IMG/VR virus record: IMGVR_UViG_3300042549_002645
Location: 1 to 33,978 of that record
Reading direction: 5' to 3' (one strand)
Source: a virus
Length of the DNA: 33,978 nt
Below are positions 6,237 through 33,043 of the stretch, in pieces. The number at the start of each line of letters is the position of its first letter. Positions within the stretch are counted from its first letter, which is position 1. The notes beneath the pieces are model-generated. The model worked only from the letters and a program-made list of their open reading frames with translations. It was not told the DNA's origin and did no database searches. The position numbers were made by a program, and so were the translations under genes.

Positions 6237-6266
6237 AAAGGGATTGAGGTGTCCTTGGTCGGGTTA

Positions 6267-6339
6267 GTCAGGTGGCGGAATTGGAAACGCACCTATGAAA
6301 AACGTGGGAGATTACAGGTTCGATTCCTGTCCTGACTAC
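6267..6339 (+). tRNA. tRNA-like gene with atypical anticodon loop (anticodon uncertain: AAA or GAA)
   Basis: 73 nt. Acceptor AGTCAGG pairs perfectly with CCTGACT, followed by discriminator A and no encoded CCA. The D arm GCG/CGC has a GG in the loop. The T arm ACAGG/CCTGT has the canonical TTCGATT loop, and the 5-nt variable loop is normal. In this register the anticodon stem is CCTAT/GTGGG with two wobbles, and the loop GAAAAAC lacks the near-universal U33. Shifting the anticodon stem by two bases gives loop ATGAAAA with U33 and anticodon GAA (Phe), but with a C-C mismatch and a shared base in the D arm. It is either a decayed tRNA-Phe or an unusual phage tRNA. Confidence 0.75.
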
Positions 6340-8553: not shown

Positions 8554-9166
8554 TATTTTACAAAGGTCAGACGAATGGCACGAACAACGTAAAGGTAAAT
8601 TTACCGCAAGTGAGGTTTACAAATTAATGGGTATTAAAGCACTTGGAGAAACTGGCAAAGGGTACGCTTTTGACAAAGCAATAGAAGAACTTTACGGAGA
8701 AACTGAAGAAACTTTTGTATCTTACGATATGCAAAGAGGGATTGAGTTAGAACCTTTAGCTTTTGCAAAGTTTCAGGAGTTAAAAGAGTCTGAATTTTTA
8801 CAAGTTGAAACGTGCGGTTTCTTTAACTTTGGAGAAAGTGCAGGTGCAAGTCCTGATGGAATCGTGGGCGAAGATGCAATTTTAGAAATAAAATGTCCAA
8901 AACCATCTACTTTTTTTAAGTTAGTTGCTACAAATGAGATAAAAGACCAATATCTTTACCAAATGCAATTGCAAATGATGTCAACGAATCGAAATAAGGC
9001 GCATTTCTTTAACTATTGTATCATAGACGGCATAGAATATTGGCACGAGATAATTGTAACAAAAGATGACGTTATTTGTGACAAAATGGAAGCAAGAATA
9101 AAAGAAGCGAGTGAATTAAAACAAGAATATATTAACAACTTAAATAACAACAAACAATGGCTTTAG
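8543..9166 (+). CDS. YqaJ/lambda-exonuclease family recombination nuclease
   Basis: 207 residues. It probably degrades dsDNA ends to give 3' single strands for annealing-type recombination. The nuclease core is visible: QRSDEWHEQRKGKFTASEV at the start (YqaJ block), GIELEP, ASPDGIV with the metal-binding Asp, the ILEIKCPKP strand with the ExK motif, then YLYQMQLQM. It overlaps both neighbours and lies between the 8047 gene and the ssDNA-binding protein, an exonuclease-SSB module. Confidence 0.9.
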   Translation: MENSILQRSDEWHEQRKGKFTASEVYKLMGIKALGETGKGYAFDKAIEELYGETEETFVSYDMQRGIELEPLAFAKFQELKESEFLQVETCGFFNFGESAGASPDGIVGEDAILEIKCPKPSTFFKLVATNEIKDQYLYQMQLQMMSTNRNKAHFFNYCIIDGIEYWHEIIVTKDDVICDKMEARIKEASELKQEYINNLNNNKQWL

Positions 9167-9492
9167 AAGTAACAGGAGTAATCGAAAACATTTTACCATT
9201 AGAAAAAGGACAAACTAAAGACGGTAAAGAATGGAAAAAACAAAGTTTCTTATTGAAAACAGATGAACAATACAGCAACCTTTATTGCTTTGAGATTTTC
9301 GGAGATGAGAAAGTAGAAAACTTTATTAAATTTAATAAAGTTGGTCAATCTGTAAAAGTAGATTTTAATGTAGGTTGTAACGAATGGAACGGAAAATACT
9401 TTACTAAATTACAAGCGTGGAAAATCTTTAAAGCTGACTCAAAAGAAGAAGAAATTGCAGTTGAAGATGAAGGCGATGGGCTACCGTTTTAA
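9157..9492 (+). CDS. DUF3127-type single-stranded DNA-binding protein
   Basis: 111 residues. An OB-fold pattern is visible: EVTGVIENILPLEKGQTKDG, WKKQSFLLKT, LYCFEIFGD, VGQSVKVDFNV and WNGKYFTKLQAWKI. These match the DUF3127 family of Bacteroidota. The C-terminus is acidic and ends DEGDGLPF, like the SSB tail that docks partner proteins. It overlaps the exonuclease gene by 10 bases. A small hairpin (CTACC/GGTAG) spans its stop codon. Confidence 0.85.
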   Translation: MALEVTGVIENILPLEKGQTKDGKEWKKQSFLLKTDEQYSNLYCFEIFGDEKVENFIKFNKVGQSVKVDFNVGCNEWNGKYFTKLQAWKIFKADSKEEEIAVEDEGDGLPF

Positions 9493-13943: not shown

Positions 13944-13951
13944 TATATTTG
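13944..13951 (+). promoter_or_regulatory. Promoter -7 box for the pseudoknotted leader
   Basis: TATATTTG, followed by TACTTG; the -33 box at the expected distance is poor. Transcription would begin near 13957, a few bases before the first pseudoknot strand at 13965. Confidence 0.6.
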
Positions 13952-13964
13952 TACTTGTAATTTA

Positions 13965-14048
13965 GTGAGATTTATTACGAAACCGAAAATATTATAAGAA
14001 TCCGATATGGAAAAGCCAAATCTCACAATAGGCTGACCGTATCGGATT
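13965..14048 (+). ncRNA. Pseudoknotted 5' leader RNA, element A
   Basis: GTGAGATTT (13965-13973) is complementary to AAATCTCAC (14018-14026), which lies in the loop of a hairpin. The outer stem of that hairpin is AATCCGATATGG/CCGTATCGGATT (13999-14010 with 14037-14048, 12 bp with one G-T), and its inner stem is AGCC/GGCT (14014-14017 with 14031-14034). Loop-to-upstream pairing makes an H-type pseudoknot. It starts about 8 nt after the probable RNA 5' end and ends 55 nt before the ATG of the next gene. The sequence matches no riboswitch or ribozyme I know. The 187-base gap 13917-14103 holds only this element, its promoter and an A/T-rich stretch. Confidence 0.75.
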
Positions 14049-14103
14049 TTACTTTTTAAAACTAAAGTTTTGTTTGTTTTAGTTAAAAAACATTCACAAA
14101 ATT

Positions 14104-14340
14104 ATGGCAAATGTCAAATTAATTTTTCAGGGAACTGAAGAATCTTCAACAAATGAAATAGGATTGCAATGCTATTCTAATTCCAACAACAATATTTATA
14201 TATCAATTAAAGATTATGAATGTGACCACGATTATTCTATTCAACATATTTGTTTAGATAGAGAAACAGCTATAAAACTACATCGTGAGCTTAAAAAACA
14301 TATTTCTTTTTTAGAAAATGAAGGAGGTCAAAATGGCTAA
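14104..14340 (+). CDS. Hypothetical protein behind the pseudoknotted leader
   Basis: 78 residues, unrecognised. A beta-rich first half (VKLIFQGTEE, NNIYISIKDYECDHDYS) is followed by a helix, DRETAIKLHRELKKHISFLE. It is the first gene after leader element A and overlaps the replication initiator gene by 8 bases. Its last codons also form that gene's Shine-Dalgarno site. Confidence 0.7.
   Translation: MANVKLIFQGTEESSTNEIGLQCYSNSNNNIYISIKDYECDHDYSIQHICLDRETAIKLHRELKKHISFLENEGGQNG
14321..14328 (+). promoter_or_regulatory. Unusual strong Shine-Dalgarno site
   Basis: AAGGAGGT lies 4 bases before the ATG at 14333. Almost no other gene in this window has a Shine-Dalgarno site, so this one is notable and fixes the start of the replication initiator. 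Confidence 0.7.
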
Positions 14341-15067
14341 AGAATTACCATATTTTAAATTCTTTTGCTCCGAATGGAGTGATGGAGATATAACTTTAGA
14401 ATCATACGAAATTCAAGGTTTATTTATAAATATTTGCTCTTATTATTGGAGTAATAATTGCGAAATGACTATTATTAAGCTAAAAAAGAAGTTTAAAGGC
14501 AACGATAATTTAATTAATGAGCTTATAGATTCTGAAATAATAAAAATAGTTTATGACAATGTTTATATTAACTTTTTAGATGAGCAACTAATTGAGAGAG
14601 AGGATAGTTCTGTTAAGAAAAGTTTAGCTGGTAAAGCATCAGCAGAGGCAAGAAGATTAGCAAAATTAGAACAACAAGTCAACACAAGTTCAACAGAAAG
14701 TCAACAGGTGTTAAATTCCTGTTCAACAGAAAGTCAACTATTAAGAGAAGAGAAGAGAAGAGAAGAGAAGATAAAAGATATTAACCTATCGGTTAATTGG
14801 GACGCACTTCTTTCTCAATTCAATTTAATAACAGGAAAGAAAATAAGAGTTATTGATGACAAAACTAAAAGACAAGTTAATGCAAGGTTAAAAGATGGCT
14901 ATTCTAAACAAGATATTGTTAACGCTATTACTAATTGTTTTAATGATGACTATCACAAAGAGAATCCGCATTACCTTACTTTAGAATTTATCACAAGGTC
15001 AGACAAAATGCAAAAGTACTCTCAGGAAATTATAAAGCCAAAAGCTAAACAACAAGACCGACTATGA
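14333..15067 (+). CDS. Replication initiator (DUF4373-like N-terminus)
   Basis: 244 residues. The N-terminal winged-helix-type domain begins KELPYFKFFCSEWSDGDITL and contains ESYEIQGLFINICSYYW, the usual opening of Lin1244/DUF4373 and DUF1376-like replication proteins. A Ser/Thr/Gln linker follows with two repeats of STESQ, then a run of LREEKRREEK, then a C-terminal domain (about 155-235) like those on phage replisome organisers. It probably recognises the origin and loads the helicase, as O-type initiators do. The linker DNA contains direct repeats (see separate entry). It is followed by an ATGA overlap with the next gene. Confidence 0.78.
   Translation: MAKELPYFKFFCSEWSDGDITLESYEIQGLFINICSYYWSNNCEMTIIKLKKKFKGNDNLINELIDSEIIKIVYDNVYINFLDEQLIEREDSSVKKSLAGKASAEARRLAKLEQQVNTSSTESQQVLNSCSTESQLLREEKRREEKIKDINLSVNWDALLSQFNLITGKKIRVIDDKTKRQVNARLKDGYSKQDIVNAITNCFNDDYHKENPHYLTLEFITRSDKMQKYSQEIIKPKAKQQDRL
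14678..14770 (+). repeat. Iteron-like repeats and pentamer repeat inside the initiator gene (candidate origin)
   Basis: GTTCAACAGAAAGTCAAC occurs exactly twice (14688-14705 and 14721-14738, 33 bases apart), with a fifth GT(T)CAAC unit at 14678. Between the copies an ACAGG/CCTGT inverted repeat occurs. Then the 5-bp unit AGAGA repeats about five times (14743-14770), purine-only on this strand. An origin with iterons and an A-rich side inside an initiator gene is the known layout of phage lambda. The origin call here is inference. Confidence 0.55.
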
Positions 15068-19577: not shown

Positions 19578-20033
19578 ATGATTGAAAAGTTAGCACAACA
19601 TCACGACGAATGGGTAAAGTTTGCATTAAAGATTTGCGGAAATCGTGATGACGCTAACGACCTTGTACAGGAAATGTATTTAAAAATGCACGATAGCCAA
19701 AAGGAAGTAAATAATTCTTATATCTATTGCGTTATTAAAAATCTTTATCTCGACCAATACCGAAAGAATAAGGTAAAAGAAAAAACGGTATACTACCAAG
19801 AAGAATATACAGAACAAAACGAAGAAATTGATTTCACTGCAGCCTACGAGGAATCACTAAAAGAACTAAAGACCTATAAGCAATTGATTGTAAACTTTTC
19901 AACTAAAGAAGGAGTTAACAACTTCGCAAGACAAAGTGGAATATCTAAAGCCACAATTATAAGAATAAGAAACGAATTTAAAAAGATACTATGTCAGAAA
20001 GTAAAGGACTTGGAGATTCAATCGCAAAGATAA
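19578..20033 (+). CDS. Phage ECF-like RNA polymerase sigma factor
   Basis: 151 residues. The sigma region 2 core is seen in ALKICGNRDDANDLVQEMYL and VIKNLYLDQYRKN (about 16-65). A region 4-like HTH near the end is NFARQSGISKATIIRIRNEF. The length fits small phage sigma factors of the ECF class. It lies at the junction between early small genes and the terminase/virion genes, so a late-gene switch is the natural role. The next gene starts inside its end, overlapping by 43 bases. Target promoters are unknown. Confidence 0.8.
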   Translation: MIEKLAQHHDEWVKFALKICGNRDDANDLVQEMYLKMHDSQKEVNNSYIYCVIKNLYLDQYRKNKVKEKTVYYQEEYTEQNEEIDFTAAYEESLKELKTYKQLIVNFSTKEGVNNFARQSGISKATIIRIRNEFKKILCQKVKDLEIQSQR

Positions 20034-29980: not shown

Positions 29981-30015
29981 AAACCCTCGTTAGTTATAGC
30001 GAGGGTTTGTTTTTA
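29981..30015. terminator. Bidirectional terminator
   Basis: AAACCCTCG, 10-base loop, CGAGGGTTT, followed by GTTTTT on + and by TTTTTTAATTTT on -. It ends both the tape measure transcript and the minus-strand GIY-YIG gene. Confidence 0.9.
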
Positions 30016-30729
30016 TACGTAGATAAATGGAGTTGTGTTTTTTCTATTTAAATAGTTATATAATTTTATTCTTGTTATATTTATAGTTATTGCGGCTTCC
30101 TCACATCCTAAATAAAAAATACCTGTTTCAGTGTTTAGTATTATTTTATTGTTTGATTCACTCATTTTTCTTTTACTTTCTTCGGAATGTTTTTTACCTG
30201 TATTAAATTCACTAATTTTTCTTTTAGTTTCTTCAGATAATTTAATTCCTTTACGAGCTTTACTCATTTTTCTTTTACTTTCTTCAGATAATTTAATTCC
30301 TTTACGAGCTTTACTCATTTTTCTTTTACTTTCTTCGGAATGTTTTTTACCTGTATTAAATTCACTAATTTTTTTTTTAGTTTCTTCAGACATATTTAAT
30401 TTAGCTTCACTCATTTTTCTTTTACTTTCTTCAGATAATTTACCACTTCTATCACTTGACTTTGTCAATCTACAATTTAAACCAGCTTTACCAATAGCAC
30501 TAAAAACTTCCTGATAATACCTTTCTTTATCGTTTAGTTCGTTTGCTTCACATTCACATAAAACTTCAAATTTATGTTTGTTTGCTCCATATTTTAAAAG
30601 TGAATTATAAAGTATTGTTTGCGTTTTACAACTTAATCTTTTATATTGATTAAATCTTTTTTCAATATCAATACTTTGACCTATGTAAACTTTCTTTGTT
30701 GGACTTGTAATCTTATAAATTCCTATCAT
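30013..30729 (-). CDS. GIY-YIG endonuclease with NUMOD3-like repeats (free-standing homing type)
   Basis: 238 residues. The GIY-YIG core is complete: [19 protein letters not shown] (GIY...YIG), then an Arg in IEKRFNQYK, and a Glu in [11 protein letters not shown]. After it come about seven tandem repeats of 17 residues ([17 protein letters not shown] and variants), like NUMOD3 DNA-binding modules of homing endonucleases. The C-terminus ([20 protein letters not shown]) looks like a small HTH (NUMOD1-type). It is the only minus-strand gene, with its own promoter and structured leader. Probably a mobile endonuclease that moved between virion genes without disrupting one. Confidence 0.9.
30178..30393 (-). 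repeat. 51-bp tandem repeats inside the endonuclease gene
   Basis: Identical or nearly identical 51-base units (17 codons each) code for the NUMOD3-like motifs. Exact adjacent copies lie at 30241-30291 and 30292-30342, and a longer block near 30178 recurs at 30331, 153 bases (three units) away. The copies are recent duplications; they are coding and not CRISPR. Confidence 0.85.
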
Positions 30730-31983: not shown

Positions 31984-33006
31984 ATGGCAATTACTTACAA
32001 TTCAGTTAACTATCGTGGAAAGGCAGCAGAGCCAATCGTTGAGGAATTATTATTCGAAAATGCAACTATCGCTAAAGCTTTAGTAACATTCGAAGAAGAT
32101 GTTAAAGCAGAAACTATTTTTACGGAAGCTACTGCTACTGCAACTTTACAAGCTTACACTTCAGGAGTACCAACTTCAGCAGGTTCTTTAACTGCTTTTG
32201 ATGTAGCGGTAACTCCTACAAAAGTTCAATTTTACCAAGAGTTTGACCCTAATACCTTGCGTTTTTCTCGTTTTAAAAGAGATATGAAACCAGGAGCGTG
32301 GGAAATTATGTCAAGCGAATTTGAGCAACTTGTTATCGGTGGTTTATACGCTAAACAAATTTCAAACGCTTTTGAAAATGAGTTTTGGAATGGTGCAACA
32401 TCTGCAACTAAAACGGCTGTAGCTGCTTTAACTGCAGGAACTGCTAACACTTCGGTTGGTGCTGCTGAAAAAACTAAAGTTGCTGCTTTGGCTACAAGTC
32501 AAATCGACGGTATCTTGGTTAAAATGATTTATAACGATTCTAACGCTTCAGCTACTGCAGGAGTAGGTACAAGAATTAAAGTTGCAGGTACTACTTTAAC
32601 TGCTGCTGTATTGAAAGTTGAATTAGACAAAGTTTATGCTGCTATTCCTGCTGCTACTTTGAACGCTGCCGAAAAACCATCTTTGTACTTGCCGCGTTCG
32701 GTTAAACAAATGATTGTTCAAGCTAACAATGTAACAACTGACTATACTAAACCATTTGATGCAGATGCAGCTTATGAGAATATTTACTTTAATGGTTTGA
32801 AATGTGAGTTCGTTCCACTTCCTGAAAACGTTGTTATCGCTGCTTTGAAATCACACCTTATTTGGGCTACTGATTTAGCTTCAGATGTTAACGTTATGCA
32901 ATTGGACAAAATCGCTCTTAATAGAGAAGATATGTTCTTAAAAAACAATATGACACTTGCTGCTCACGTTGTTAACCAAAAATTCAACGTACTTTACGTA
33001 GGATAG
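31984..33006 (+). CDS. Major capsid protein
   Basis: 340 residues. The gene stands after the protease/scaffold and before structural genes, and its codons are less AT-rich and more uniform, as expected for the most expressed protein. KVQFYQEFDPNTLRFSRFKR in the first third and FENEFWNGATSATKTAV near the middle resemble HK97-fold capsid proteins of this phylum, and the C-terminus has VNVMQLDKIALNREDMFL typical of the P-domain region. It ends before a terminator. Confidence 0.85.
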   Translation: MAITYNSVNYRGKAAEPIVEELLFENATIAKALVTFEEDVKAETIFTEATATATLQAYTSGVPTSAGSLTAFDVAVTPTKVQFYQEFDPNTLRFSRFKRDMKPGAWEIMSSEFEQLVIGGLYAKQISNAFENEFWNGATSATKTAVAALTAGTANTSVGAAEKTKVAALATSQIDGILVKMIYNDSNASATAGVGTRIKVAGTTLTAAVLKVELDKVYAAIPAATLNAAEKPSLYLPRSVKQMIVQANNVTTDYTKPFDADAAYENIYFNGLKCEFVPLPENVVIAALKSHLIWATDLASDVNVMQLDKIALNREDMFLKNNMTLAAHVVNQKFNVLYVG

Positions 33007-33016
33007 TCAATAACTT

Positions 33017-33043
33017 AACCGCTCTTTAATTAGGGCGGTTTTT
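33017..33043 (+). terminator. Rho-independent terminator after the capsid gene
   Basis: AACCGCTCT, loop TTAATT, AGGGCGGTT (9 bp, one wobble) then TTT. It probably limits the abundance of downstream transcripts relative to the capsid mRNA. Confidence 0.85.

Follow-up and report, generated by a model that had tools for sequence, protein, structure and literature searches.

Genomic context and layout of the leader

The window, that is the whole stretch of 33,978 nt of the virus record IMGVR_UViG_3300042549_002645 that was analysed, carries an operon whose first gene is a 78-aa ORF of unassigned family (14104–14340, + strand), followed by a gene for a replication initiator-like protein (phrog_428/O-like; 14318–15067, +). 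An earlier note, made from the sequence alone, had described a structured leader just behind a promoter and ahead of this replication-initiator operon, and both placements were borne out. The −7 promoter box, TATATTTG (13944–13951, +), is of the Bacteroidetes sigma-A type TAnnTTTG. Transcription is predicted to start at 13956 (+), 5 nt past the box, on the basis of the −12 to −5 box placement in PMC9723704.

The first hairpin, P1 (13957–13978, +), pairs GTAAT (13957–13961) with ATTAC (13974–13978), can be extended to TTGTAAT/ATTACGA and holds in its loop the first kissing strand, K (GTGAGATTT, 13965–13973, +). An A-rich linker (13979–13996, +; consensus approximately AAAATATTATA) lies between P1 and the second, terminator-like hairpin P2 (13997–14050, +; AGAATCCGATATGG/CCGTATCGGATTTT). 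The P2 core is a 12-bp stem of AATCCGATATGG (13999–14010) and CCGTATCGGATT (14037–14048), which flanking pairs lengthen to 14 bp. It encloses an internal loop and the stem P3 (14011–14036, +). The internal loop is AAA/GA in the window, the family consensus being UGA or GGA opposite UGA; P3 pairs AGCC (14014–14017) with GGCT (14031–14034) around a 13-nt loop (14018–14030) that contains the second kissing strand, K' (AAATCTCAC, 14018–14026, +). K and K' form nine Watson-Crick pairs. A U-run, TTTTACTTTTT (14047–14057, +), lies directly 3' of P2, and the element is at least 50 nt from the start codon.

The 12-bp hairpin, the inner 4-bp stem, the 13-nt loop and the nine loop bases complementary to an upstream sequence are all present where the earlier note had seen them. 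Its reading of the leader as a pseudoknot stands for the long-range pairing and fails for the topology, P1 having been overlooked; the U-run was also absent from it. Since GTAAT and ATTAC enclose GTGAGATTT, it lies in a hairpin loop, and the contact between K and K' is thus a loop-loop kiss. The element is, as predicted from its sequence, an intramolecular kissing-loop complex of two hairpins, and not a single strand folding back.

Conservation of the kissing-loop fold

Folding of the 166-nt leader, with the long-range pairing left out, gave −38.5 kcal/mol (z = −4.32), and none of 200 shuffled sequences folded as well. The 78-aa ORF has 21 relatives in IMG/VR, and its alignment yielded 34 loci. 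Among named phages it has a single match, in Cellulophaga phage phi18:3; Flavobacterium phage morran9-1 gave a weak DNA match that spans the leader. No relatives of the 78-aa family were found in scans for prophages in the contigs of GTDB species genomes. Using a scanner that required P1, a kiss of at least seven Watson-Crick pairs and P2, we found the full architecture in 25 of the 34 homologous leaders, whereas 340 leaders with shuffled dinucleotides gave no instance of it. The order in the relatives is P1, A-rich linker, P2, internal loop with UGA or GGA on both sides, P3, loop and U-run. Two layouts occur: in type 1, that of the window, the kissing strand adjoins P1 at its 3' arm and P3 at its 5' arm, and in type 2 it adjoins the opposite arms, 5' in P1 and 3' in P3.

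Strand K has 27 different sequences among 31 curated elements, and the kiss is kept in all 31 of those tabulated, each K being complementary to its own K' over 6–11 Watson-Crick pairs (mean 7.9). Swapped K/K' pairs, used as a control, give 4 nt or fewer in 85% of cases. Two near-identical leaders differ in just this contact, L009 having CTTCGAC/GTCGAAG and L010 CATGCAC/GTGCATG. The earlier note had named uncompensated variation at paired positions as an outcome that would count against the fold; in the homologous leaders the pairs are instead maintained through compensatory changes. In a nine-sequence alignment of close relatives (A4), 97.7% of the cells pair, a value that is also given for the P1 cells. 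The kiss helix is 100% paired in this alignment, with double changes in four of its eight pairs; double changes were also seen in all four pairs of P3 and in three of the 13 pairs of P2. The observed covariation score was reached by none of 500 shuffles, and sliding the alignment by one column cut the pairing to about 40%. The MAFFT alignment of the type 2 elements (A5) was not aligned by structure and is left out of these counts. As a free duplex the kiss helix amounts to approximately −8 to −16 kcal/mol.

P1 is less strongly supported than the other helices. A P1 score of at least 13 was reached by 67% of 43 elements versus 20% with shuffled flanks, a difference that is partly selected because the scanner required P1.

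Selection on the transcribed strand and promoter register

In order to distinguish the two strands, we exchanged the pairing rules of the scanner, replacing G-U by A-C, which is how a G-U pair appears from the other strand. With G-U allowed, 35 of the 43 elements had a P2 of 10 bp or longer; with Watson-Crick pairs alone this held for three, and with A-C in place of G-U for four. As G-U extends the stem and A-C does not, it is the + strand RNA that is under selection.

Of 40 elements, 31 have the motif TANNTTTG no more than 40 nt ahead of K, where 0.05 occurrences are expected per 40 nt, and in 30 of these 31 elements K begins 8–14 nt past the box. The sigma-A box of consensus TAnnTTTG sits at −12 to −5 (PMC9723704). 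From this box position P1 would begin at about −1 to +3, so that the hairpin would lie at the very start of the transcript.

Distribution among phages and downstream genes

A scan of 1.54 Mb of phage records on both strands gave 14 elements with scores of at least 58 in the real sequences and none in the shuffled ones; with scores of at least 52 and a promoter the numbers were 27 and two. The carriers are named Flavobacterium, Cellulophaga and Polaribacter phages, among them lillamy9-1, filifjonk9-1, phi10:1, phi19:1, 11b, FCL-2 and P12002L, and many IMG/VR contigs. Phages phi18:3, phi19:3 and phi46:3 have two elements each, on opposite strands and at separate operons.

Mostly the element lies ahead of replication operons, but it is also found ahead of unrelated first genes, the same genomes included. 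In FCL-2, P12002L and phi19:3 it precedes replication genes without the 78-aa ORF, and four loci with relatives of the FCL-2 and P12002L replication proteins (L162, L164, L165 and L198) have it directly upstream, with new loop pairs. That the same fold recurs with wholly different letters at operon starts in many phages of bacteria of the Flavobacterium type indicates a real control element.

On one contig (G003, 32998–33094; L114, 313–1288) there are two initiator-type operons, and a kissing element precedes each: one element lies before a 67-aa ORF and an initiator-like 219-aa ORF and the other before an operon of the 78-aa type, which suggests duplicated replication modules. In morran9-1, gp042 (L001, 3011–3154; 14157–14300 of the record), annotated as a hypothetical gene, overlies the kissing element; this annotation is probably wrong.

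A small hairpin predicted by folding, element B (14066–14101, +), lies beside the start codon of the 78-aa ORF. It occurs in homologues of this ORF and is separable from the kissing element: in one relative (L002) the latter stays with the promoter, and an inserted ORF separates it from element B. The stem of element B varies and its loop is similar in many relatives (AATCTTAA, ATCCTAAA), a pattern that fits, as would be expected, a putative protein-binding translational operator.

Terminator anatomy

The eight nucleotides after P2 hold on average 6.0 T compared to a background of 3.0, and no matching enrichment of A was seen before P2. From the base of the P2 stem upward, the GC content is 1.00, 0.88 and 0.82, then 0.45 and 0.18, which amounts to a three-pair GC clamp. 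P2 and the U-run together have the make-up of an intrinsic terminator, namely a GC-clamped hairpin with a U-run directly behind it, although the U-run is weak in a few elements (L015, L006). In the window, P2 with its T-run (dG approximately −19.8) is the strongest terminator-like hairpin on the + strand. The element was the first terminator-like hairpin in all 16 downstream stretches of 2.3–9 kb and the only one in 11 of them. This agrees with the element itself being the relevant terminator, and speaks against a processive antiterminator, for which other terminators would have to be present downstream.

A classical attenuator with an antiterminator fold was rejected, as no conserved mutually exclusive pairing emerged when four candidates were compared across 40 leaders (mean z approximately 0). 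A leader peptide was likewise rejected: 17 of 40 elements lack an internal ATG ORF of at least five codons, and the peptides of the others are mostly unrelated. The window has an ATG GAA AAG ... TGA frame (MEKPNLTIG) inside P2, which is not conserved. With neither an exclusive pairing nor a leader peptide, control would come from the tertiary fold or from a bound factor. The kiss, being stable and compatible with P2, should favour the terminated fold.

A proposed promoter-proximal attenuator

We propose that the element is a promoter-proximal transcription attenuator whose terminator is built into the kissing-loop fold, a proposal that we consider slightly more likely than not. Host RNA polymerase would initiate at the TATATTTG promoter, and P1 would fold at the extreme 5' end and expose K in its loop. 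After roughly another 50 nt, K' would emerge and pair with K. P3 and P2 would then close around the kiss, and P2 with the U-run would bring about intrinsic termination. A considerable fraction of the transcripts, perhaps most, would be released at a length of about 100 nt as a stable and compact RNA, with read-through feeding the operon. The tertiary fold, made up of the kiss, the G-A internal loop and the A-rich linker, could set the efficiency of termination or let a host or phage factor change it.

The computed basis of this proposal consists of the fold and its conservation at the RNA level, its position at +1, its terminator anatomy, and the finding that most of the downstream stretches tested have no other strong terminator. 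Termination itself, its partial or regulated character and the regulator are what the sequence leads us to infer. A terminator directly behind a phage's own promoter makes sense only if it is leaky or relieved.

Alternative explanations

An element acting at the level of DNA, as an origin, a cruciform or operator repeats, would agree with a place ahead of replication genes in many phages. Against it stand the keeping of G-U and not of A-C, the strand-specific U-run and promoter register, and the copies ahead of non-replication operons; a cruciform or origin was rejected on the asymmetry between G-U and A-C, and the DNA-level reading is extremely improbable. A leader of the T4 gene 32 type would let a protein, encoded by the phage or its host, recognise the fold and repress the translation or transcription of the operon. 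The 5' pseudoknot of T4 gene 32 precedes the gene for the single-stranded DNA-binding protein (SSB) itself and nucleates SSB binding. The element resembles it as a structured phage leader with a pseudoknot-type contact near replication genes, and keeps its shape without its sequence, save for the G-A internal loop and the A-rich linker, which suits recognition of shape by a protein. However, we identified no gene that all carriers encode. The SSB-like gene of the window (DUF3127, 9157–9492) lies elsewhere and has no such leader, its homologue was undetected at the cut-off used in the carriers phi18:3, FCL-2 and P12002L, and Panino and LoVEphage have the homologue and no convincing element. The 78-aa protein is missing behind the elements of FCL-2, P12002L and phi19:3. 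Dependence on either protein was rejected, as each is missing or undetected in some carriers. The distance to the start codon in the window and a U-run that translational control would not need also speak against such a leader, which we judge very unlikely; the analogy to T4 gene 32 and SSB autoregulation, drawn in the earlier note, is not supported, though some other protein may bind the fold.

The sharp limits of the element, with P1 at about +1, the terminator at about +95 and the whole body structured, would also suit a stand-alone small RNA gene, whose terminated kissing RNA of about 100 nt would act in trans or titrate a protein, read-through into the operon being incidental. The 27 K sequences leave no conserved trans target visible, and the element is always directly ahead of an operon with no other obvious promoter between, so that we regard a small RNA gene as quite unlikely. 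A further candidate is a processive antiterminator, a folded RNA that would attach in cis to RNA polymerase during elongation and render it resistant to terminators further along. Its precedent is putL and putR of phage HK022, cis-acting RNAs of two stem-loops at the starts of the early transcripts of two operons (PMC9378689). The likeness is one of anatomy and lies in the position at the very start of early-type transcripts, in the two-hairpin build and in the two copies at separate operons of one genome that some carriers have, with no obvious shared trans factor. Yet put RNAs act through the zinc-binding domain of the RNA polymerase beta' subunit on distant terminators, and few or no other terminators were found within 2–9 kb downstream of the element, which leaves little to antiterminate. 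P2 and the U-run of the element form the strongest terminator, and PMC9378689 ascribes no such feature to put RNAs; kissing loops are not described for put, and the sequences of the family, moreover, are unconserved. A put-like function is unlikely.

An attenuator next to the promoter remains the reading that we prefer. A wider form of it is doubtful: a new class of phage RNA device, a kissing-loop fold, terminator included, that starts at +1 and tunes entry into early operons through host RNA polymerase without a dedicated protein, across many groups of Bacteroidetes phages and with a freely diversifying loop pair. RNA-level gene control in the phages of Flavobacteriia and their relatives is almost unexplored, and this element is compact, has strong compensatory evidence and a precise promoter register. 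It has cultivable named carriers (morran9-1, lillamy9-1, phi18:3, phi10:1, FCL-2 and 11b) in which one can test the gating of a replication operon, and whether a kissing-loop fold without alternative pairing can run a terminator. It would also provide an RNA signature with which operon starts could be searched for in Bacteroidetes phages from metagenomes.

Relation to known systems

In the repC leader of pT181 and the repR leader of pIP501, an antisense RNA triggers an alternative fold of an attenuator, and loop-loop contacts matter. These leaders share with the element a terminator ahead of a replication gene and loop-loop contacts, but the kiss is here formed within one molecule, and conservation of an alternative pairing is lacking; inspection of a set of leaders by eye showed no conserved antisense promoter. 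Type III toxin-antitoxin loci of the ToxI type consist of a promoter, a pseudoknotted RNA, a terminator and then a gene. The same order is found here, whereas tandem repeats and a ToxN-like gene are absent and the downstream genes vary; no toxin family was found for the downstream proteins, and the RNA is single copy.

A covariance-model search of the window and 20 homologous loci against Rfam 15, which the earlier note had proposed for excluding a known family, gave no match on the element that reached the gathering threshold; two sub-threshold hits fell far below the cut-off. In the open-access literature, part of the survey PMC8040213 included, we found no paper that could be recognised as an account of an element of this kind. 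Within that open-access scope the element is apparently undescribed.

Other features nearby and in relatives

Cellulophaga phage Nekkels_1 (L135, 13530–13740) has GTCCACTACCTTACTTGAGGTAAGTGGACTTTTT and then GTAGTGGACGA directly behind TATATTTG, before the portal gene. This site, a hairpin with a T-run and a competing downstream complement, resembles a classical attenuator and is of a different design. In morran9-1, a DUF805b RNA (RF02914, 52.1 bits; L001, 1692–1726) lies upstream of gp040.

At 30006–30729, within the structural gene block of the window, a strong + strand terminator-like hairpin (CCCTCGTTAGTTATAGCGAGGG then TTTGTTTT) adjoins an ORF on the opposite strand that resembles a GIY-YIG homing endonuclease with NUMOD-type repeats. 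A second terminator-like hairpin of this block (CCGCTCTTTAATTAGGGCGG then TTTTTAAT, at 33039) lies closely behind a 340-aa ORF (31984–33006). A tRNA gene (RF00005, 48.8 bits; 6266–6338) is found among small early ORFs. The ORF at 19578–20033 has a sigma-70 region 2 domain (PF04542), and this phage sigma-like factor could switch promoters later in infection.
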